Shown piece after piece: positions 5,876 to 55,452 of a stretch of 64,000 bases of DNA. Both the position numbers and the translations under genes were made by a program. How positions within the stretch are numbered: the stretch's first letter is position 1; each line of letters begins with the position of its first letter. The notes beneath the pieces are model-generated. The model searched no databases and was not told the origin of the DNA. It worked only from the letters and a program-made list of their open reading frames with translations. The stretch is from Hymenobacter sp. YIM 151858-1 (lineage in GTDB: Bacteria > Bacteroidota > Bacteroidia > Cytophagales > Hymenobacteraceae), in the NCBI RefSeq assembly GCF_025979705.1, contig NZ_CP110136.1, positions 2,790,001-2,854,000 of the forward strand. The letters are read 5' to 3'.

Positions 5876-6301
5876 ATGGCCGAGTCGGTTGTCATTTCTG
5901 AGCCTTACGGCGACGTGCTGCTGATGCCGGACGTGCCCTGCGTGGCCGTGCGGTGGCACAGCTTTGCCAACAGCGCCCAGTTTCGCTCGCTCATGGACGA
6001 AGCCCTGGCCTACTACACCCGCGAGGCGCAGCAAACCTGGCCCTTGGGCTGGCTGTTCGATTTGCGCAAGATGAGCGCCCTGGTGCCCGCCGACCAGCTG
6101 TGGCTCGAAACCGACTGGAACCCGCGCGCCTACAGCCTGGGCGTGCGGCACATCGGCATGGTATCGTCGGAAAACATTTTCGGGCGCATTGCCGCGCAGG
6201 TGTACGCCGCCAACACCACCGCCCGCGAGGATTACGTGCTGGAGCCCGAAATCCTGGGCACCCTGGAGGAAACCAAGCGCTGGGTGCGCCGCAATTTGTA
6301 G
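5876..6301 (+). CDS. STAS/SpoIIAA-like small protein (paralogue 2 of 9)
   Basis: A 141-residue member of the window-wide family, in its more divergent branch. It retains the N-terminal strand VAVRWHSF, the central GWLFDLRKMSAL strand-turn (in place of VLNDNR), the P-x-x-Q-W...W-x-P region, GVRHIGMVSSENIFGR and a C-terminal ETKRWV helix. It lies 92 bases downstream of the PAS-only sensor on the same strand, with no terminator between, so co-transcription is plausible. A link between PAS sensing and this protein is an inference from position. Confidence 0.7.
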   Translation: MAESVVISEPYGDVLLMPDVPCVAVRWHSFANSAQFRSLMDEALAYYTREAQQTWPLGWLFDLRKMSALVPADQLWLETDWNPRAYSLGVRHIGMVSSENIFGRIAAQVYAANTTAREDYVLEPEILGTLEETKRWVRRNL

Positions 6302-8545: not shown

Positions 8546-8971
8546 CTACCCCACGCTGCGCAACCAGTTTTTGGCGTTTTCGGGGTTATCAAACAGGCGC
8601 ATTTCGAACTGGTTGCCGATGCGCCGGTGCAAATCCTGCACGGATAGCTGCCCAAAGATGCCCGGCGACAACACCTGCGCGAAGTAGCGCAGTCCGGCCT
8701 CGATGGTAAGCGGCGTCCACACGTTGGCTATCCACTCGTTGGCTTCGGAAAACGGCCCCACCAGCTCGCTGTGGTCGTTCAGCAGTTTGGCGCAGGGCTC
8801 TTCGCGCAGCATGTCGAGGTAAGCCATGCCGCCTTCCATCACGGTGCTCAGGGTTTGAATGCCCGACCAGCGGGCGCAAATCCAGCCCTCGTGGCGGTTG
8901 CGCTCGGCCGTAAGGTACACGTAGCCATCGGGCCGGTGAAAGGTGGTAACGGAGGTAGAGACGGGTTGCAT
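8546..8971 (-). CDS. STAS/SpoIIAA-like small protein (paralogue 3 of 9)
   Basis: A 141-residue member of the family. Landmarks: EGWICARWSG, CAKLLNDHSELVG, NEWIANVWTPLTIEAGLRYFAQVLSP and the C-terminal MRLFDNPENAKNWLRSV. Start taken at 8971 (MQPVSTSVTTF), since the longer frame to 9043 adds a Cys-rich stretch absent in paralogues. It is immediately upstream of and probably co-transcribed with the alpha/beta hydrolase (10-bp gap). Confidence 0.75.
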   Translation of the reverse strand: MQPVSTSVTTFHRPDGYVYLTAERNRHEGWICARWSGIQTLSTVMEGGMAYLDMLREEPCAKLLNDHSELVGPFSEANEWIANVWTPLTIEAGLRYFAQVLSPGIFGQLSVQDLHRRIGNQFEMRLFDNPENAKNWLRSVG

Positions 8972-9161
8972 AGCAGGTAGCGAGCAGATAGCACACGCCT
9001 TCAACGAAGACGGGCACCGTTCGGCCACAACATAGTACAGCAAACCAGAATTACGCGCATCCGCCGCCAGGCGGCAGCCCGCACCTAGGGCCGCAGCTCA
9101 ACCTTAGTGGGGCGCCCTGCGTAAGCTAGCATCCATTCGCCCTCTTTTCCACAACCAACAC

Positions 9162-11183: not shown

Positions 11184-11579
11184 TCACATCTGGCGCAGCC
11201 ATGCGCTGGCGGTGTCGATATCGTCGAACGTGAGCACAAGCGGGCGCGTGGTGTGGCTCATCATCAAATCAGTAGAGAGGCGGCTGTAGACGTTGGGCGA
11301 GTACACCCAGGCGAAGAACTCGAGCCCGGCCTCGGCCATGGCCGGAAACCACACCTTGCCGCCCCACTCCGAGGCATCCGACCACATGCTGGTTACGTTG
11401 CGGTTGTCGTTGAGCACCTTGCGGCAACGCTCCTGCTTCAGGCACTCCAGCATTTGCAGGCAGCCGTTGCGCACCGAGTCGAAATCCTGCTCGCCGGTCC
11501 AGTCGACGTACAGCCACTCGTTCAGGTAATCGTAGGCAATGGTAACGTGGCTGTTTTGGTAGAGCGTGCTCAGGGCCAT
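11184..11579 (-). CDS. STAS/SpoIIAA-like small protein (paralogue 4 of 9)
   Basis: A 131-residue member of the best-conserved branch. Landmarks: YDYLNEWLYVDWTG, LQMLECLKQERC, KVLNDNRNVTSMW, EWGGKVWFPAMAEAGLEFF, YSPNVYSRLSTDL and TFDDIDTASAWLRQM. It is nearly the twin of the gene at 20815-21210; about 90 bases (11278-11369 versus 20909-21000) differ at only about two positions. The ATG at 11579 is chosen by comparison with that twin; the longer frame to 11684 has no support. Confidence 0.78.
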   Translation of the reverse strand: MALSTLYQNSHVTIAYDYLNEWLYVDWTGEQDFDSVRNGCLQMLECLKQERCRKVLNDNRNVTSMWSDASEWGGKVWFPAMAEAGLEFFAWVYSPNVYSRLSTDLMMSHTTRPLVLTFDDIDTASAWLRQM

Positions 11580-11606
11580 GGGTGCAATGGATGGTGCTTG
11601 GGGCCA

Positions 11607-11614
11607 CAAAACTA
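11607..11614 (-). promoter_or_regulatory. -7 element TAGTTTTG
   Basis: Minus-strand TAGTTTTG, an exact TAnnTTTG match 27 bases upstream of the ATG at 11579. Confidence 0.55.
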
Positions 11615-11732
11615 ACACAGCTACGGCACCCCGGCACAAATCCGTTGCGGGTAAGTACCATTGGCTCGGCATCCATCGGCCCACCTAGGGCCCGCACTTC
11701 GCTCAGCAGCGGGCCGGGGTATTTGCCCTGGG

Positions 11733-12338
11733 TTAGTTGCGCTCCTTCACCGGAAACTTGTCCAGAATGTCGCGGGCCGATTCGGCGAACCGCTCGCCGG
11801 CGCGGTTGGGGCTGGTTACCGCATCGATGATGGAGCCGCGCCACACCAGGTTGTTGGTTTTGGCATCCACAAAATCGAGCACCAGCATGCCCTCCTGGTA
11901 GCGCTCGGTGCGGTAGCCGCTGGGCGCCTGGTACCAGTAGGTGTAATTTACGGGCACCAGAAAACCGCGGTAGCGCACCAGGTAAGGGTAGCTCACGGGC
12001 ACGGCGGGGTTGGGCGGGTTGGCCACCGTGCGCTCGGCCTGCTCCACGTAGAGGTGGTACGTCAGGTAAAAATCGGGTTTGCCGGAGGTAGCCGGCGTAA
12101 TGCCGCGCCGGGCCAGCTCCGTTTCGATGGCCTGCCGAATGGTGCCGTCCTGCAGCTGGCTGCGCAGCGCCGGGCCTTGCGTGCCGTCGGTTTTTACTTC
12201 GGTTTCGGCCCAGGCAAACGTGCGGTATTGGCCGAAATCGACGCCTTCGCGCTGCTGCACGCTCACCGACGAGCAGCCGCCCACAAGGCCGCCCAGCAAG
12301 CACAGCAGCACGGCCAGTATTCGGGAATTCAGAATCAT
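11733..12338 (-). CDS. DUF4136 lipoprotein
   Basis: A 201-residue lipoprotein. The signal peptide LAVLLCLLGGLVGGC gives a lipidated Cys about residue 22. The mature region shows DUF4136 hallmarks: VDFGQYRTFAWAE near the start, IRQAIETELARRGI, PDFYLTYHLYVE, EGMLVLDFVDAKTNNLVWRGSI and a final ESARDILDKFP. Such proteins are widespread envelope lipoproteins in Bacteroidetes with unknown function. It stands alone between a STAS-like gene and the MsrA-like gene, from which it diverges (116-bp gap). Confidence 0.87.
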   Translation of the reverse strand: MILNSRILAVLLCLLGGLVGGCSSVSVQQREGVDFGQYRTFAWAETEVKTDGTQGPALRSQLQDGTIRQAIETELARRGITPATSGKPDFYLTYHLYVEQAERTVANPPNPAVPVSYPYLVRYRGFLVPVNYTYWYQAPSGYRTERYQEGMLVLDFVDAKTNNLVWRGSIIDAVTSPNRAGERFAESARDILDKFPVKERN

Positions 12339-12454: not shown

Positions 12455-13117
12455 ATGATAATGAAACGCTTGCTGATGCTATTGCTGGCCGGCGCCGGGG
12501 CCCTCGGCAGCCATGCGCAAACGGGCGCCGCCGCCGAGCCCGACCGCCGCTTTGCCGAGCTGCCCAAGCTGCAGCCGGGCGAGGCCGTGGCCACTTTCGC
12601 CGGAGGCAGCTACTGGAGCACCGAGCCCGTGTTTGAGCGCCTGAAGGGGGTACGCGCCGTGGTGGCCGGCCACGCCGGCGGCACCGTGCCCAACCCCACC
12701 TACGAGCAGGTAAGCCGCGGCGGCACCGGCCACGCCGAAAGCGTGCAGGTGTACTACAACCCGGCCGTAATCAGCTACGCCCGCTTGCTGCAGGTATTTT
12801 TTGCCCAGCACAATCCTACCACCCTCAACCGCCAGGGCCCCGACGAAGGCCCGGAGTACCGCTCGGTAGCTTTTTACCGCACCCCGCAGGAAAAACAGCT
12901 GATCGAAGCTGAAATCAAGCGCCTGAACGAGTCGCGGCGCTACCCCACGCGCGTGGTTACGCAGGTGGTGCCGTTCAGGGCCTTTTACCCGGCCGAGCGC
13001 TACCTGCAAAACTACTTCAGCGCCCACCCCGAGCATCCGTACAGCCGCATTGTGGCTGCGCCGCGCTACCAACAAGTGGCCCGGGATTTTCCGGAGCTGC
13101 TCAAGCCCGGTTCCTAG
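12455..13117 (+). CDS. Exported MsrA homologue lacking the catalytic cysteine
   Basis: A 220-residue protein clearly homologous along its length to peptide-methionine (S)-S-oxide reductase MsrA: AGHAGGTVPNPTYEQVSRGGTGHAESVQV, ISYARLLQVFFAQHNPTTLNRQGPDEGPEYRS and a YLQNYFSAHP end. The active-site motif, GCFW(C/G)xE in true MsrA, is here GSYWSTE: the nucleophilic Cys is Ser52 (codon AGC) and the next position Ser55. The whole protein contains no cysteine. An N-terminal signal peptide (LLMLLLAGAGALGSHAQ) predicts export. Either ATG 12455 or 12461 could start it. The TAG stop lies inside a CCTAGG. It is unlikely to reduce methionine sulfoxide by the known mechanism; a binding role is possible. 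Confidence 0.88.
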   Translation: MIMKRLLMLLLAGAGALGSHAQTGAAAEPDRRFAELPKLQPGEAVATFAGGSYWSTEPVFERLKGVRAVVAGHAGGTVPNPTYEQVSRGGTGHAESVQVYYNPAVISYARLLQVFFAQHNPTTLNRQGPDEGPEYRSVAFYRTPQEKQLIEAEIKRLNESRRYPTRVVTQVVPFRAFYPAERYLQNYFSAHPEHPYSRIVAAPRYQQVARDFPELLKPGS

Positions 13118-13193: not shown

Positions 13194-13619
13194 CTATGGC
13201 AACTGGGGCAAGGCATGGGCGGCACCTTCGCTTACCCACTGCTGGGCTTGCCGGGCTTCGCTAAAAAACTGAATCTGGCAGGGCAGCACTTCGGCGCAAC
13301 TGCCGATGATGCGCTTGATGGCCATGCGGTTCAGCGGGTCATCGGAGTACACCAGGCCCAGGCGCACAATCGGCAGCTCGGCCATGTGCGGAATAAAGTT
13401 CGTCAGCATCCACTCCTGGTCGTCGGGCCGCAGGGTGCGCATTTGCTTGTGGTTGGCAACCCAGCCGCGCACGCGGCGCCGCCGGCCTTGCCGCAACAGC
13501 TCCTGAAAGCCTGCCCGCAACTGTTCGCTGTTCACGAAGCCCCTCCACTCGGCCTCCAGCACAGCGGTGGCCGCGTGGTAATGAATCAGTAACGCTGCTG
13601 ATTGGTGTACAACGGCCAT
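13194..13619 (-). CDS. STAS/SpoIIAA-like small protein (paralogue 5 of 9)
   Basis: A 141-residue member of the divergent branch. Landmarks: LLIHYHAATAVLEAEWRGFV, VRGWVANHKQMRTLRPDDQEWM, PHMAELPIVRLGLVYSDDPLNRMAIKRI and IQFFSEARQAQQWVSEG. It most resembles the member at 55528-55938 (shared GWxANxxxxxxxRPxD and LNRM). The ATG follows a well-placed TAGCTTTG element. Confidence 0.72.
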   Translation of the reverse strand: MAVVHQSAALLIHYHAATAVLEAEWRGFVNSEQLRAGFQELLRQGRRRRVRGWVANHKQMRTLRPDDQEWMLTNFIPHMAELPIVRLGLVYSDDPLNRMAIKRIIGSCAEVLPCQIQFFSEARQAQQWVSEGAAHALPQLP

Positions 13620-13785: not shown

Positions 13786-16260
13786 CTACCGCCCTCGCTG
13801 CACCTCCAGCACGGCCGAGCCGGTACCGGGCCGGCCGTTGGCACTCAGGCCCTGCACGCCTACCCGAAACGCCCCTAGGTCGTCGGAGGTGTAAAAGGTG
13901 AGGGTAGCACGGCCATCGGCGTTGGTGGCAACGGTGGGCGCCCAGTACAGGGTAGTGGCGCGGTAATCGGGGTGCAGGGCAGGGGCCGGGGTTTCGTAGC
14001 GCGGGGCGTAAAACTCGCGGGGTTGGTAGTAGGCCGGTACGGTAGCCCGGGCCACGCCCGGGCTGCTGCCCGAGGAGGTACTGGCCGAGCCGCCGCGCTT
14101 GGTGTAAAAAGCCATTACCCCGTTGGCGCCCTGCGTGCCAAACATAGCAGCCGATGCCCCCTTGAACACGTCGACCGACTCGATATCCGAGGCCGGAATC
14201 GTAAGAATGGCTTCGATGTCCCGTACCGGCATCCCATCTAGCAATATCAGCGGCTGCGACGACCCCATGATGGAACCGGCACCCCTGATTTGCACCGTAG
14301 TTTGCATGCCGTTGCCCATTATCTGCACCCCGGCAATGCGCCCCTGCAGCGCCATAAGGGCATTGGGGTAATTATCGAAGCCAGGAATGGAACTGGTTTT
14401 GAGCATCACGTCGGCACCGGTAAAAATGCGGCGCGGGTCGTCGGGTACCGGCTCGCGGCGGCCTTTGATTACAACGTTGCTCAGCATGATACGCCGGGTG
14501 GTATCGGGCCCAAACTGCCGCTCAATCGACTGCTGCCGGCGGCTGCGTTGCCCAAAGCTGGCCGCAAGCGCTGCATCGGGCATCAGGGCTGGTGGGTAGG
14601 GCGCGGGCACCCCCGCCCAACGGTCGGTTAGTTTCACTATAAGTGCCGGGCTTCCTTTGGGCGTACGGGCCTGCACCACCACCCGGGCGCTATCCTGCCC
14701 CCCGAAACCCGTAAACAAAAACCGCCCCTGGTTGTCGGTGGTACTGGTGGTGAGGTTGTTCAGGCCCTTCCCAATCAGCAAGGTCAGCTCGCTTTGGGCA
14801 GCGGGTTTGCGTTCGGTGCGCCATACCTGCCCGCTGAGCCCCAGGCCGCGCTCCAAAGCATACTCGCCCACGGGCAAGGGGTTGTTGAGCAGCTGCGCCC
14901 ACACAAACCGTCGCCAGCCTTGGGTAAGCATCAGATGATCCAGCGCCTGCCGGGTGGCGGGCTCGGCGTCGCGGAAGTAGTAAGCCGGGTCTTCGATGTA
15001 GCCCCGCAAATCGGAGCTGAGCAAGAGGTGGCTCACGATGGTGGGCGCGCCAGGTTGCTCCAGGTCGGCAGCCGTTACAGCCAACGAAAGCTCGGCCGGT
15101 ACGGGTTGCCCGCTGGCATCGCGGGTTTCGAGCGCCAAGGTTACTTTTTGGCGCGGGCCGTAGCTGGCTTTGTCGGGCCGCACGGTTACGCGCAGGCCGT
15201 CTTGCCGGTTCACGAAAGCCAGCCGCTCGCACCGGGCCACGCCTTGCGCATCAAACAAGGTAAAGTGCGCAATGCCCGACGGAAACCGCTCGATGGGAAT
15301 GCGGCTGCTCAGCACCTCGCCGTTGGCCAGCGCCGATTGCCCCACGTACACCAACTGGCCGCGCACGTGCACCACCAGCGTTACGTTTTCGGAAGGCACT
15401 GCCTCGCCGGGCACTTTGCGCGCCATCCGGATGCCCATTTGGGTAACAGAGGGCTCTACGTGCAGCAGCAGGCCGCCGGCCGGCGCGGCAGCGGGCACCG
15501 CGTGGGTGCTGGTGCTGCCATCGGGCCAGGTAACGTGCGCGGTGTACGCCTGGCCGGCTTCGGGCGTGAAGGTAAAAGCCCCCATGCCCGCGTGCAGGCT
15601 GGCAAAGCTAGCCACGGGCGTGCCGGCGGCGTTCAGCAGCTCGCCCTTCACGGCCAAGCCGCGGCTTTGCTGGTCGGAGGCCTTAAAAGCCAGCACGTTG
15701 GGCAAGCCGGCAATCAGCTGCCCGCCCTCCGGAAACAGCTGAAAATCGGGCTTGTTGGCGGCCGGTTTGCGCTTGGCGGCTGGCGCGGGCTTGGTGCCCA
15801 GCACCGGCAGGCTTTGGCTGAAAAAGTAATCGGGGCCGGCGTTGCGCATCCAGTTGGTGTAGGCGCGCACCGTATAAGAGCCCTGCGCGGCGCTGTCGGG
15901 CAGGGCTAGGTCGCCGGCCGCGGTGCCGCCCTGCAGGCGCAGGGTGCGCCGCGCCACTACTTGCTGGTTGGGGCCCACCAAATCAACGTACAGCACGCGG
16001 CTCAGGGTATCGGGCTGGTGCTGACCGGCATTCACTACGTAGGCCTTAAACCACACCAGCTCGCCTGCGGTGTAAAAGCCCTTATCCAGGTGCAGGTAGC
16101 TCTTTTCGGGCGCGGTGGCTTGGTAAAAGCCCGTTAGCTTACCCAAAATCTGTTGCACCAGGGCCGGCTCGGGCGTGGTAAAGGCCGAGGCACCTAGGGC
16201 TGCCGCGCAGCTGCCCAGCAGCGCCCAGCGCTGCCACCTCGTACGATAATTGAAAAGCAT
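13786..16260 (-). CDS. MG2/carboxypeptidase-like surface protein with TonB plug domain
   Basis: An 824-residue envelope protein. An N-terminal signal (ALLGSCAAALGASAF) is followed by macroglobulin-like beta domains (SYLHLDKGFYTAGELVWFKAYVVN, GSYTVRAYTNWMRN), a carboxypeptidase-regulatory-like segment (TTDNQGRFLFTGFGG) and, near residues 610-745, a TonB plug (LMALQGRIAGVQI, QTTVQIRGAGSIMGSSQPLILLDG, VESVDVFKG-like, GVMAFYTKRG). The 22-strand barrel of a true TonB receptor is absent. This architecture is frequent in Bacteroidetes; it may couple to TonB without forming a channel. ATG 16260 is chosen because it directly precedes the signal peptide. Exact function unknown. Confidence 0.85.
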   Translation of the reverse strand: MLFNYRTRWQRWALLGSCAAALGASAFTTPEPALVQQILGKLTGFYQATAPEKSYLHLDKGFYTAGELVWFKAYVVNAGQHQPDTLSRVLYVDLVGPNQQVVARRTLRLQGGTAAGDLALPDSAAQGSYTVRAYTNWMRNAGPDYFFSQSLPVLGTKPAPAAKRKPAANKPDFQLFPEGGQLIAGLPNVLAFKASDQQSRGLAVKGELLNAAGTPVASFASLHAGMGAFTFTPEAGQAYTAHVTWPDGSTSTHAVPAAAPAGGLLLHVEPSVTQMGIRMARKVPGEAVPSENVTLVVHVRGQLVYVGQSALANGEVLSSRIPIERFPSGIAHFTLFDAQGVARCERLAFVNRQDGLRVTVRPDKASYGPRQKVTLALETRDASGQPVPAELSLAVTAADLEQPGAPTIVSHLLLSSDLRGYIEDPAYYFRDAEPATRQALDHLMLTQGWRRFVWAQLLNNPLPVGEYALERGLGLSGQVWRTERKPAAQSELTLLIGKGLNNLTTSTTDNQGRFLFTGFGGQDSARVVVQARTPKGSPALIVKLTDRWAGVPAPYPPALMPDAALAASFGQRSRRQQSIERQFGPDTTRRIMLSNVVIKGRREPVPDDPRRIFTGADVMLKTSSIPGFDNYPNALMALQGRIAGVQIMGNGMQTTVQIRGAGSIMGSSQPLILLDGMPVRDIEAILTIPASDIESVDVFKGASAAMFGTQGANGVMAFYTKRGGSASTSSGSSPGVARATVPAYYQPREFYAPRYETPAPALHPDYRATTLYWAPTVATNADGRATLTFYTSDDLGAFRVGVQGLSANGRPGTGSAVLEVQRGR

Positions 16261-16420
16261 TGAGAGGAAATAATCGGGAACAAACCAATAAGTCGGCAGC
16301 GAATAAAGCAGATGCACGATTACCCGCCAAACCTTCCCGGCCTTTGTTGCTATTGGCGTGACACAGCCGGTGGGCCGGGGCCTTTACCGGCGTGCCTCGC
16401 CTACCAAAACCCAGGTGCCC

Positions 16421-17187: not shown

Positions 17188-20064
17188 TTAAATTCCGATA
17201 TCGAGCACCAACGGCTGCAGCACCCAACTACCGGTGCGGGTATTGTACACAAAGCGCAGGCCCGTTTCGAGCGGGGTGCGCAGGCGCAGCACGTTAAACA
17301 CCACGGTGGTGCTCAGCCCTAGGTTTTGGTAGGTGCGCGAGCCCACGAAGCGGCCTTCCACGTTGCGGCCGTGGGCCCAGTCGGCAAAGCCCGAGCCGGT
17401 AAAGCGCTGCACGTACAGCCAGCGGCCCACCGCCCAGTGCGTATCGGCCAAAGGCAGGCGGTACTCCACGCTGGCCGTGCGCAGCCGATCGAAGCTGACG
17501 TAGCCCGAACCGCGCGGGAAGAACACGGCCGGCGCAAACTGATACTCGCGCTGCTGCTGCCACTGATAGCCGCCGCGCACCCGCACGTTGTGGTGCTTGC
17601 CAACGCCCGGGAAATACAGGCTGCCTTGCACGGCCCACTGCGAGGCCTCGAGCCCGCGGCCAAACGGCGTGGTGCGCCCCGTAGCCAGCAGGCTTTGCCC
17701 CCACCTAGGGCCCACATCGCGGGTGCTTTGCTTGAGCACGCGCACGTAGCTGGCGCTGCCCTGCACGCCGTTGAGCGGACTGTTGGGGCCCACCTCGGTA
17801 ATGCGCCGCACGGGCAGGTTGTAGTCGCGCACTTGCTCGTGCAGGTAGTAGGCACCTAGGGTAAGCGCCTGCAGGTACTTGGAGCGCGTGAGCGTGAGCG
17901 GCAGGCGCACACCGGTAGTCAGGCGGGTGTAGCGCCACCGGTCGCGGTACACATCGCCTTGGTACAAAATGCCGGCGTTGCGGCCGCCGTGCTCAATATC
18001 GAGGTCGAACACGGGGTAGCGCCCCTGGTAGCTTACGCCGCCGAAAAAGCCCGCTGTGCGCTCGGCCTGGTCGAAGGATGCGCCCGCTATGGCCTGGGTG
18101 GTGTTCAGGAAATCCTGCGACCGAATACCTAGGCTGAGGCTATTGCCCGCGGGGCTTTGCACCAACCCCCAGCCGAAAACATTGAACGCGTGGCGCAGCG
18201 GCGAGTAGGGCCGCACGGCGTAGGCCTGGCCCGAATCGGCGGGGGCCGCAAGCTGGGGCAGCAAACGCCGGGCGCCGGGCTCCTGCGCCGTAAGCTGGGC
18301 CGAGTACAACCGGGCCGGATCGGTGGTGGCTACGGGTACCTCGCGCCAGGTGGCGGGGTCGAGCGGCATTTCCATTACGCGGGCGCCCTGCGCCCGGTAA
18401 TCGTGAAAAGCGAGGTGGCGCCCGTCGGGCGACACAGCCGCGTGGTAGGCACCGAATGGGCGGCTGGTAACCTGGTAAGTGCGGCCCGTGCCGGTATGCA
18501 CGGCGTGCACGTTGTCGAGGCCCGATTGCGGCGAGTTGTACAGCACGTAGTCGCCCCAGGGCTGCGGGTTGCTGAGGTTTACGTTGGCTACCGGCAGCAG
18601 CGCCCGCACCTGGTTGGCGGCGGGGTTTATCAGCTCCAGGGTTTTGCCCTCGGGCCGCAGCACCACGGCCACCACGTGTTGCCCATCGGCGGTAAAGCGC
18701 GGCTGAATGTACAGCTGATTTTGTGGGTTGGGTAGCGTTTGCAGCACCTTGCCCGTGGCGGCATCGAGCAGCACCAAGGCGTGGCGGTAGCTTTCGTCGG
18801 TTTGCGTGGCTACAATACGGGTGCCATCGGGCGAGAGGGCCGCGGCGGTGTAGCGGCTGCCCTTGGTGAGGCGCGTGAGGCGGCCCGTGCCCAGGTCGAG
18901 CAGGCGCAGCTCGGTGTAAATGCGCTGCCCCCACCTAGGGTCGAACCCGTACTCGGGCCAAATGGCCTTGCCCGCCGCTACCGACAGCATTTCGGGCCAA
19001 TTCAGCTGCCCCAGCACAAACACCTTCTCCTCGCGCCCTTGCCTGCTTAGGCGCACCAGCTGGGCAATGTCGCCGAGGCCGGTTTTCAGGGCCAGCACCG
19101 TGCTATCGGAGAGGTACTGCGGAAACTCGTACTGCGTGAATACTTTTTCGGTGGCCTGCACTTTCAGGTCGCGGCCGGGGGTAAGCACCAGCTCGCGCTG
19201 CTGGGCGCGCCACGCCGAGTCGGCCTCCTGCATGCTGCGCCGGTACAGCTGCTCCACGCGCAGGCCGGTTTCGCGGCGGATGCTGCGCGAAAACGAATAC
19301 GGGTAAAACGGAAAGCGGTAATACCGATCGAGCACCCGGTCCCACACGTCGGGGCCGTGGTGGTTTTTCAGGTACGAGGTCATGAAGTAACCCAGCACGT
19401 ACCAGTTGGGCACAAAGTCGCGGTACGAGCCCGCCACGGCTTTGGGGTAGCTGTAGCGGCGCCCCGACAGCAAGTTGGCGCGCAGGCCCACATCGAAGCT
19501 CGGGATGCGCCCGCGGCCGCTGCGCGTGAGGGCCGTTTCGGTGCCCACGGCGTCGCCTTCAAAAAACCACGGCGGCACGCCCACCGAAGCCACACCCAGG
19601 GCCCCTTGGCCGAGCAGCGGCACCAGCAGGCGGCCCACGCCCTGCCGGGCCTTATCAAACTGCCCCACGTGCCGGAACTCGTGCACGGCCAATTGGTCGA
19701 GCCAATCCAGCGTGCCGAGGCTCATGTCCTGCGGGGGCACCACGAAAAACTCGGAGTGGCGCGGCAGAAACGTAACAAACCCGTTGCTGACGGTGGTTTG
19801 GTTTTGCAGCACCACGGTAATGGCCCGCGCCGTTACGCCCAGCGTGGCCGAGCCCACGGCGTGCACCTGCTCGAGGCGGCGGGCCGTGCGCTGCGCGGCC
19901 GAGTCGAACCCTTGGGGGTAAAGCACGCTGAAGTGCGGCGTGCGTACCTGCCGCCACTGCAGCGCGGGCGGGTTCTGATCGAGGATGGGCAGCGACTGCG
20001 CCGAGGCCGAAAACGCGGCTGCCGCGGCCAGGCCGCAGGCAGCAAAAAAGGGAAAGCGAAGCAT
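17188..20064 (-). CDS. HEXXH peptidase-like / beta-propeller / outer-membrane barrel fusion
   Basis: A 958-residue protein. A signal peptide (to about residue 23) is followed by a peptidase-MA-like domain with LAVHEFRHVGQF (H128-E129-x-x-H132, a gluzincin zinc motif) and a downstream FFEGDAVGTET that may supply the third ligand. The middle (about 330-640) has PD40/TolB-type propeller repeats (AALSPDGTRIVATQT, FTADGQHVVAVVLRPEG, AVSPDGRHLAFHDYR). The C-terminal third is rich in amphipathic aromatic strands (GVSYQGRYPVFDLDIEHGG, RVRGGYQWQQQREYQF) and ends ...LVLDIGI, like an outer-membrane barrel. Together it looks like a surface-anchored protease or scaffold; activity is inferred from the motif alone. 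Confidence 0.8.
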   Translation of the reverse strand: MLRFPFFAACGLAAAAAFSASAQSLPILDQNPPALQWRQVRTPHFSVLYPQGFDSAAQRTARRLEQVHAVGSATLGVTARAITVVLQNQTTVSNGFVTFLPRHSEFFVVPPQDMSLGTLDWLDQLAVHEFRHVGQFDKARQGVGRLLVPLLGQGALGVASVGVPPWFFEGDAVGTETALTRSGRGRIPSFDVGLRANLLSGRRYSYPKAVAGSYRDFVPNWYVLGYFMTSYLKNHHGPDVWDRVLDRYYRFPFYPYSFSRSIRRETGLRVEQLYRRSMQEADSAWRAQQRELVLTPGRDLKVQATEKVFTQYEFPQYLSDSTVLALKTGLGDIAQLVRLSRQGREEKVFVLGQLNWPEMLSVAAGKAIWPEYGFDPRWGQRIYTELRLLDLGTGRLTRLTKGSRYTAAALSPDGTRIVATQTDESYRHALVLLDAATGKVLQTLPNPQNQLYIQPRFTADGQHVVAVVLRPEGKTLELINPAANQVRALLPVANVNLSNPQPWGDYVLYNSPQSGLDNVHAVHTGTGRTYQVTSRPFGAYHAAVSPDGRHLAFHDYRAQGARVMEMPLDPATWREVPVATTDPARLYSAQLTAQEPGARRLLPQLAAPADSGQAYAVRPYSPLRHAFNVFGWGLVQSPAGNSLSLGIRSQDFLNTTQAIAGASFDQAERTAGFFGGVSYQGRYPVFDLDIEHGGRNAGILYQGDVYRDRWRYTRLTTGVRLPLTLTRSKYLQALTLGAYYLHEQVRDYNLPVRRITEVGPNSPLNGVQGSASYVRVLKQSTRDVGPRWGQSLLATGRTTPFGRGLEASQWAVQGSLYFPGVGKHHNVRVRGGYQWQQQREYQFAPAVFFPRGSGYVSFDRLRTASVEYRLPLADTHWAVGRWLYVQRFTGSGFADWAHGRNVEGRFVGSRTYQNLGLSTTVVFNVLRLRTPLETGLRFVYNTRTGSWVLQPLVLDIGI

Positions 20065-20236
20065 CGGTAGTAAAGCTGCGGCGCGGCGGCGGCATTTGCA
20101 ACCCAGGCGCCGGCTTCGGCGGGCGGGGCTGCGGGCGGGCTTCGCGGCGGCGGCTTATCTTGCAAGCCGCGCCCAGCGCACCATTGCCGGGCGGCCGGTG
20201 TTGTGCGGCCACCTCCCACTCCCCTCCTTTTCGAAC

Positions 20237-20728
20237 ATGAAAAAACTGATTGCCTTTTTGCCCCTGCTGGCCGTGCTGGGCTGCTCCACGCCCGATCTGC
20301 CGCAGCCCCAGCCCGGTGCCGCCCTCGAGCAAAGCCAGGTGTACTCTATCAGCTACAGCAAGCAGGCCGCCAATGGCCAGCCCGTGCAGCTCGACGACGC
20401 CCGCATCGAGGTATACACCGCCGAGCCCGAAGCGAGCAACGGCAGCTTTGCCCTGAAGCCCTATGCGCTGCGCACCACCTACACCAACGCCTCGGCCTCG
20501 GCGGTGCTGGTTGATCTGCCCACGGTAACCACGTACGCCGGCGGCCCGCCTGCCAGGCTGCGCCTGGTGCTATCCAGCAGCGCCCGGCCTGCTGCCGGCC
20601 AATTGCTCGACGTACACGTGTACCAAGGCCGTACCGAGGTGTTTGCTGCCCAGCACACCGGCGCTTCGGCCCAGCAAAACGGCACCCGCTACGAAACGAT
20701 TGTCGACTACAGCATCGCGCCGTTGTAG
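20237..20728 (+). CDS. Lipoprotein of unknown function
   Basis: A 163-residue protein with the leader MKKLIAFLPLLAVLGC, a textbook lipoprotein signal with Cys16 lipidated. The mature part is beta-rich (VYSISYSKQAANGQPVQLDDARIEVYT, RLRLVLSSSARPAAGQLLDVHVYQG, RYETIVDYSIAPL), perhaps an Ig-like fold. I do not recognise a family. Start 20237 is chosen for the signal peptide. It diverges from the peptidase-barrel gene and is followed by a very strong hairpin. Confidence 0.75.
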   Translation: MKKLIAFLPLLAVLGCSTPDLPQPQPGAALEQSQVYSISYSKQAANGQPVQLDDARIEVYTAEPEASNGSFALKPYALRTTYTNASASAVLVDLPTVTTYAGGPPARLRLVLSSSARPAAGQLLDVHVYQGRTEVFAAQHTGASAQQNGTRYETIVDYSIAPL

Positions 20729-20814: not shown

Positions 20815-21210
20815 CTACATGTGCCGCAGCCACGAGGCAGCGGTATCCATGTTATCGAAGGTCATCACGATGGGCTTGGCGGTGTGCCGCAGGGTCAGGT
20901 CGGTGGAGAGGCGGCTGTAGATGTTGGGCGAGTACACCCAGGCGAAAAACTCGAGCCCGGCCTCGGCCATGGCCGGAAACCACACCTTGCCGCCCCACTC
21001 GGCCGCGTCGGCCCAAATGGTTTGCACCTTCCGGTTGTCGTTGAGCACCTTGTGGCAGCGCTCCTGCTTCAGGCACTCCAGCATTTGCAGGGCGCCGGCC
21101 TGCACGCTGGCCAGGTCCTGCTGGGCGCCCCAATCGGCGTACAGCCAATCGTTGCCGAAGTCGTAGTAAATACTGATGGTGGCATCCTCGAAGATGGAGC
21201 GCAGGGCCAT
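20815..21210 (-). CDS. STAS/SpoIIAA-like small protein (paralogue 6 of 9)
   Basis: A 131-residue twin of the gene at 11184-11579 with the same landmarks (DWLYADWG, LQMLECLKQERCHKVLNDNR, EWGGKVWFPAMAEAGLEFF, FDNMDTAASWLRHM). It is divergent from the giant PAS histidine kinase starting at 21391, with a 180-bp shared promoter region, which raises the possibility of a functional link. A TACGTTTA string at 21242-21249 (minus strand) is a weak -7 candidate. Confidence 0.78.
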   Translation of the reverse strand: MALRSIFEDATISIYYDFGNDWLYADWGAQQDLASVQAGALQMLECLKQERCHKVLNDNRKVQTIWADAAEWGGKVWFPAMAEAGLEFFAWVYSPNIYSRLSTDLTLRHTAKPIVMTFDNMDTAASWLRHM

Positions 21211-55044: not shown

Positions 55045-55452
55045 TTAGCTTCCGCAAATAGTGCGCAGCCACTGCTGGGCGGCGGGCAGGTTATCGAACA
55101 CGCGGGCCTCGAAGGCGCGGAGTTGGGCGTAAAATTCGCTGGCCGAGCCTTCGGCCAGCGAGGCGGGCGTGGTAATCATGGCAAAGTGCTTCAGGCCTGC
55201 GCCCGCGGCCATGGGTGCCCACTCGTTGATAACCCAATCCATGGAGTGGCCCCAGGGGCCGCGCACGTCGCGGGTGTCGTTGAGCACGCACGAAAAACCG
55301 GCTTTGGCGAGAGCAGCGGTATAGGCCTTGGCGCCCTCCTGGATGTTGCTAGCCGTGAGGTAGCCCTGCCAGCGCACATGAATCCAGCGGTTTTCCACAT
55401 CGGTATCGATGGACAGGTACACGTGGCCGAGCGACGACTTAAGTTCTGGCAT
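55045..55452 (-). CDS. STAS/SpoIIAA-like small protein (paralogue 8 of 9)
   Basis: A 135-residue member of the main branch: NRWIHVRWQGYLTASNIQEG, FSCVLNDTRDVRGPW, MDWVINEWAPMAAGAGLKHFAMITTP and EARVFDNLPAAQQWLRTI. It follows another family member (55528-55938) on the same strand with a 75-base gap, so the two may be co-transcribed. Confidence 0.75.
   Translation of the reverse strand: MPELKSSLGHVYLSIDTDVENRWIHVRWQGYLTASNIQEGAKAYTAALAKAGFSCVLNDTRDVRGPWGHSMDWVINEWAPMAAGAGLKHFAMITTPASLAEGSASEFYAQLRAFEARVFDNLPAAQQWLRTICGS

Follow-up and report, generated by a model that had tools for sequence, protein, structure and literature searches.

The window (the whole 64,000-nucleotide stretch of Hymenobacter DNA analysed here) encodes an MsrA pseudo-enzyme that is real and maintained by selection. 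It is a variant of a known family, and the genomes searched contain it in two species. On the sequence evidence, the best reading is that of a lineage-restricted protein that would have been kept for binding. The relevant features are as follows.

12455..13117, + strand: Cys-free MsrA homologue (PMSR family), 220 aa (ORF, Pfam/NCBIfam, predicted fold, Foldseek)
12461..12517, + strand: putative Sec-type signal peptide MKRLLMLLLAGAGALGSHA, followed by Q, from the second Met (read from the sequence; export and cleavage type putative)
12509-12511, + strand: Ser19, at the position of the relatives' lipobox Cys (relatives LLAALGAVSC or AAAGATSC)
12608..12610, + strand: Ser52 (codon AGC), replacing the catalytic Cys (Cys51 in E. 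coli/Neisseria numbering; alignment, loci comparison)
12617..12619, + strand: Ser55 (codon AGC), replacing the second Cys of GC[YF]WC (alignment)
13004..13006, + strand: Leu184, replacing the invariant His of YHQDY (alignment, 66 loci)
11733..12338, - strand: DUF4136 lipoprotein gene, divergent from msrA (profile scan, neighbourhood comparison)

An MsrA homologue without cysteine

The frame is intact from its ATG at 12455 to the stop at 13115-13117, and its product carries the motif GGSYWSTE and no Cys at all. The protein belongs to the MsrA family, scoring 178 bits with the Pfam PMSR profile (PF01625; cut-off 23.7) and 159.8 bits with the NCBIfam msrA profile TIGR00401 (cut-off 108.1). An AlphaFold2 model built from a 39-row alignment, A1 (39 of the 49 recognised proteins), had a mean pLDDT of 89.8, low chiefly at residues 1-25, and Foldseek matched it to 1ff3, 6yev and 3bqf, as expected of an MsrA fold. 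The 45 PDB entries matched by the model (E<=0.001) are titled MsrA, Mxr1, MsrA/B, PilB MsrA or methionine sulfoxide reductase; the one exception, 7c13, is titled 'cGrx1 C16S' and its molecule is named MsrA in the PDB sequence match. Thus, the 220 codons, the AGC triplets and the profile scores bear out the sequence-only reading of an intact MsrA-homologue frame with GSYWSTE and no Cys.

The protein is apparently exported, judging from its N-terminus. In the two Ser species the signal sequence ends in SHA or SRA before Q, which would make an ordinary signal-peptidase I site.

Residues changed and retained

The two Ser species, G000 (the genome of the window) and G005, carry Ser at three positions where six relatives in the genus have Cys: in the lipobox, at the catalytic site and at the second Cys of GC[YF]WC. 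Codons 52 and 55 are AGC in this pair and TGC or TGT in the other six genomes. This second Cys is probably the resolving Cys of these relatives. With the two GSFW rows left out, A1 has 35 Cys-type homologues, among which 35 columns are invariant; the Ser pair departs from these columns only at Cys52 and at His184, which is Leu, leaving 33 the same. Relaxing the threshold to 90% conservation gives 52 columns, of which the pair differs in 4 (Cys52, Ser71, Asp120 and His184), and Asp has become Asn at 120 and 186, both within conserved motifs. Position 184 is His in 62 of 66 loci and Leu in three (representing two genes), with one locus not covered. We take this position to be E. coli His186, in the active site; no paper naming E. 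coli His186 was found in the open-licence literature.

The pocket residues Trp54, Tyr83, Glu95, Asp130 and Tyr135 (we presume that MsrA numbering has Trp53 and Asp129 for the first and fourth) are unchanged in both species. Trp54, Tyr83 and Glu95 are conserved in 66 of 66 loci, Ser forms included, and Asp130 and Tyr135 in all 65 covered. In the nucleophile position of G[CU]FW an MsrA may alternatively have Sec, and some MsrA proteins are recycled without a resolving Cys. Set against an active MsrA, the window protein therefore lacks the nucleophilic Cys (Ser52), any resolving Cys and the His of YHQxY (Leu184), and has the sulfoxide pocket complete. The earlier claim that the other core residues are retained stands for the pocket and for 33 of the 35 invariant columns, and falls for the YHQDY His and for the second and lipobox Cys.

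The changes are not part of a general loss of cysteine in the lineage. In gap-free columns of 27 control ORFs, 70 of the 80 Cys of G007 are Cys in both G000 and G005, and three are lost in both. Because none of the 80 is Ser in both species, against three of three in msrA, the loss of Cys is specific to msrA.

An enzyme using other chemistry, with Ser52 or another residue in place of the Cys, could draw on the acid/base residues Glu95, Tyr83 and Tyr135, all present. However, passages of PMC6210582 and PMC6211008 describe reduction by MsrA as requiring a nucleophilic Cys that becomes a sulfenic acid, of which a Ser hydroxyl is incapable, and the window protein has no Cys left for recycling, so that a surviving enzyme is very improbable.

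Distribution of the serine form

An orthologue was found in all eight genomes of the genus that were examined. It adjoins the divergent DUF4136 gene in seven of them; in G003 the two lie ~6.5 kb apart in the same neighbourhood. Ser occupies the catalytic position in two of the eight, G000 and G005, whose proteins are 91% identical, and the other six read GCYWCAE, GCYWCSE or GCFWCTE. As the same codons occur in a second genome, a sequencing error at 12608-12610 is ruled out, and close relatives with Cys at this position, which the earlier reading had thought would tell against it, are found in six of the eight genomes and not in the remaining two. The G005 orthologue has one Cys (in GHAECVQ), and the wholly Cys-free state is thus limited to the window species. 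A tblastn count over 66 loci (L001-L066) found Cys at position 52 in 63 of them and Ser in three (L002, L003 and L004); L002 and L003 are one gene, as are L001 and L040.

A wider search used the DNA pattern F[AG][AG]GS[FY]W, ungapped and blind to other replacements of the Cys or of flanking residues, so that its counts are lower bounds. With AGY codons it matched in 9 of 204 genomes of the family (a reversed control pattern matched in 14 places), and four of these nine loci are MsrA: G000, G005 and two species of another genus (L082 and L083). With TCN codons it matched in three of the 204, none of them MsrA. Over 395 genomes sampled from the phylum the AGY pattern matched in eight, with MsrA in G000 only. 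The earlier reading had proposed testing for a clade of GSYW-type sequences in Bacteroidetes; with Cys in six of the eight genus genomes, the Ser form is a two-species state among the genomes examined and makes no broad clade.

The proteins at L082 and L083 (1063-1542, - strand) are a different MsrA, with GSFW and a degenerate DPTTLNRQGND motif, shared by the two species of that other genus; they probably represent an independent loss of the catalytic Cys. A third MsrA of G003 (L033, 1600-2151, + strand), ~57% identical to the window protein, has GCFWSVE, with the catalytic Cys present and the second Cys absent.

Selection on the serine form

A GY94-type codon model (191 codons, eight taxa, msrA gene tree) put omega at 0.038 on the two tips of the Ser pair, at 0.18 on the stem leading to them and at 0.072 on the background branches. 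The fit was better with three omega classes than with one (p 0.0096). When stem and tips were pooled, omega was 0.071, no different from the background (p 0.92), and the tip value was not significantly lower than the background (p 0.062). Neutrality (omega = 1) was rejected on the tips (2dlnL 128) and on the stem (p 0.006), and four starts and a second topology agreed (stem 0.205, tips 0.038, neutral-tip 2dlnL 129). The pairwise omega of msrA between G000 and G005 (0.056) lies inside the range of five neighbours (0.038-0.163). Constraint from an antisense gene is ruled out: between G000 and G005 the sense protein is 89% identical and the antisense frame only 76%, which places the constraint on the MsrA-homologue protein. 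A catalytic residue has thus been lost and purifying selection has followed, as in a pseudo-enzyme.

A dead gene, slowly decaying once the second MsrA described below became exported, would fit the presence of that apparently exported, Cys-type protein in the same genome and the raised omega of the stem. This is hardly tenable, as the frame is intact in both species, the tips are far from neutral and the pairwise omega is ordinary for the region; strong purifying selection after the loss is not decay. The sequence-only reading had likewise argued against simple decay, and its exported, selectively maintained pseudo-enzyme is now well supported as a reading of the sequences, by the codon model and by the same Ser in a second species.

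A conserved scaffold or moonlighting protein, in which the MsrA fold is kept for other surface contacts and the cleft no longer binds methionine sulfoxide, is possible but on the unlikely side. The two changed invariant columns both lie in catalytic motifs, the other 33 being held, and purifying selection is strong overall. Nevertheless, Trp54, Tyr83, Glu95, Asp130 and Tyr135 are the same in both species despite at least 24 amino-acid changes on the stem (parsimony), a comparison that has little power for single sites after the loss, as only two species carry the Ser form. The retained pocket residues could also be inherited constraints of the fold.

Origin of the serine allele

Over the control ORFs G000, G005 and G007 are about equally distant, and single-gene trees disagree on their branching order. 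In a three-species fit the G007 branch had a dS of 1.01 for msrA against a median of 0.34 for the 27 control ORFs, some of which are mechanical ORFs of doubtful reality; the next-highest value was 0.80 (19985-20728, an ORF of uncertain reality) and the remaining controls were at most 0.45. Similarly, pairwise dS between G000 and G007 was 1.22 for msrA and 0.36-0.63 for six neighbours. Because the divergence of G007 from the Ser pair is high in msrA, synonymous sites included, and normal in the neighbours, the split of the Ser allele seems to predate that of the surrounding region.

These dS values would be explained if the Ser allele had arrived by recombination from an unsampled related lineage and had not evolved in place, to which we give somewhat less than an even chance. 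The gene sits in the same place beside the DUF4136 gene, however, and its tree joins the Ser pair to G007 (support 0.987). Recombination would concern the origin of the allele only and is compatible with any function. An older duplication with later losses also fits the divergence of msrA. That G007 recently regained the Cys form is not supported, as G007 and G004 are ordinary in msrA (86% identity, dS 1.61) when set beside their neighbours (72-87% identity, dS 1.33-3.40, near saturation).

A second MsrA with an apparent export signal

The window genome has one other MsrA, of the Cys type (GCFWCVE), as the earlier reading had suggested looking for. It also has four MsrB genes; each carries the R[YF]C motif, which we take to be catalytic, and in two of them an export signal is apparent by eye. 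The second MsrA lies at a conserved locus. In G000, G005 and G007 it has an in-frame, hydrophobic, signal-peptide-like N-terminal extension of the MQRYLLVLPLLLGLALSAFGQ type (L001, 1399-2031; L035; L037) that is not found in the other five, which look cytosolic (L034, L036, L038, L039 and L041). A signal peptide is excluded in G004 and G006, where the ME[LI]ATFGAGCFW start is preceded by an in-frame stop at a distance of 14 and 10 codons, respectively; G001, G002 and G003 have an open frame that reaches further upstream, in which no signal peptide was seen by eye. Constraint is strong on the mature part (omega 0.017), and the 31-codon extension has an omega of 0.41, for which neutrality is not rejected (2dlnL 2.73) and which is too short to decide. 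This is an apparent gain of export, as read from the N-termini, and since the old start Met is still present both forms might be made, with dual targeting. It suggests that redundancy with the second MsrA freed the lipoprotein copy to change.

A profile scan of ten msrA neighbours found no redox partner; the matches were MFS, DUF4136, MG2/TonB plug, fasciclin, PD40, DUF2141 and hydrolase, and three had no match. The MG2/TonB match is an 843-aa protein (13786-16317, - strand) with a macroglobulin-like MG2 domain and a TonB-receptor plug domain. The window also holds small proteins of ~130-165 aa that are seemingly related within groups: 1287-1688, 11184-11684 and 20815-21210; 13194-13619 and 5876-6301; and 55045-55452 and 8546-9043. 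The grouping rests on best matches to one another's G005 or G007 copies (28-60% identity), and those at 11184, 13194 and 20815 have no Pfam family match.

Discussion

What, then, does an MsrA without cysteine do? The Neisseria C51S protein was crystallised with bound substrate (3bqf), according to a passage of PMC6210582 that also names Glu94 and Tyr82 or Tyr134 as acid/proton donors and a Trp as holding the methyl group. Since the reaction is impossible without the Cys, and yet the Neisseria C51S protein holds its substrate, binding without reduction is by analogy the most likely role of the window protein. Sulfenic-acid chemistry would be lost with the nucleophile, and the retained Trp54, Tyr83, Glu95, Asp130 and Tyr135 would let methionine-S-sulfoxide or a related side chain dock. 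The oxidised side chain of exported proteins might then be held by a reader, shield or presenter beside active, exported MsrA and MsrB proteins. We consider it about an even call that this is an MsrA without reductase chemistry, kept by selection in a two-species lineage as an exported, soluble, non-reducing protein with a presumed binding role. The loss of His184, with Asn120 and Asn186, may mean that the pocket no longer fits methionine sulfoxide and that the ligand differs.

The simplest history would begin in the ancestor of G000, G005 and G007, where a normally cytosolic MsrA would have gained a signal peptide. The lipoprotein MsrA, made redundant by an exported active paralogue, would then have been rebuilt without functional Cys in one line. 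As selection still preserves it, the protein has probably been recruited outside the cytoplasm to a new function other than repair. More speculative, and rather unlikely, is a role as a dedicated reader of methionine sulfoxide outside the cytoplasm: a natural MsrA of the C51S type would recognise oxidised methionine on exported proteins, leave it unrepaired, and hand over, shield or signal beside the newly exported MsrA. Such readers based on MsrA may have arisen more than once, given the GSFW proteins of a second genus.

Among the matches listed, no non-catalytic MsrA under selection was found in the open-licence PMC literature. A protein that corresponds in nature to the C51S laboratory mutant would lend itself to use as a methionine sulfoxide probe. 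Furthermore, the genus presents a succession of steps open to testing, in which a signal peptide is apparently acquired by an active paralogue, a lipoprotein copy then loses three functional cysteines and selection persists.

Comparison with known MsrA proteins

The window protein shares with MsrA (PF01625, TIGR00401) the fold, the length, the Trp/Tyr/Glu/Asp/Tyr pocket and the GHAE and PTTLNRQGPD motifs, but differs in having Ser for both the catalytic and the second Cys, LQ for HQ and no Cys. The lipoprotein-like MsrA of the genus (L005-L010) are its orthologues, with a shared neighbourhood and 67-76% identity, but keep the lipobox Cys, GC[YF]WC[ATS]E and YHQDY intact. The GSFW proteins L082 and L083 have the same exchange of catalytic Cys for Ser, again common to two species; unlike the window protein, they have no signal sequence by eye, keep HQ and two other Cys, and have lost both the GND Asp and the greater part of DPTTLNRQ; we take them as an independent event. 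Finally, the Neisseria meningitidis PilB MsrA C51S (3bqf), the second-best PDB sequence match to the window protein with GGSFW in its alignment, has the same exchange at 41% identity, and the predicted model superposes on it with an rmsd of 1.5 over 154 columns. However, 3bqf is a laboratory mutant in which YHQDY is kept, whereas the window protein adds Ser55, Leu184, Asn120 and Asn186.
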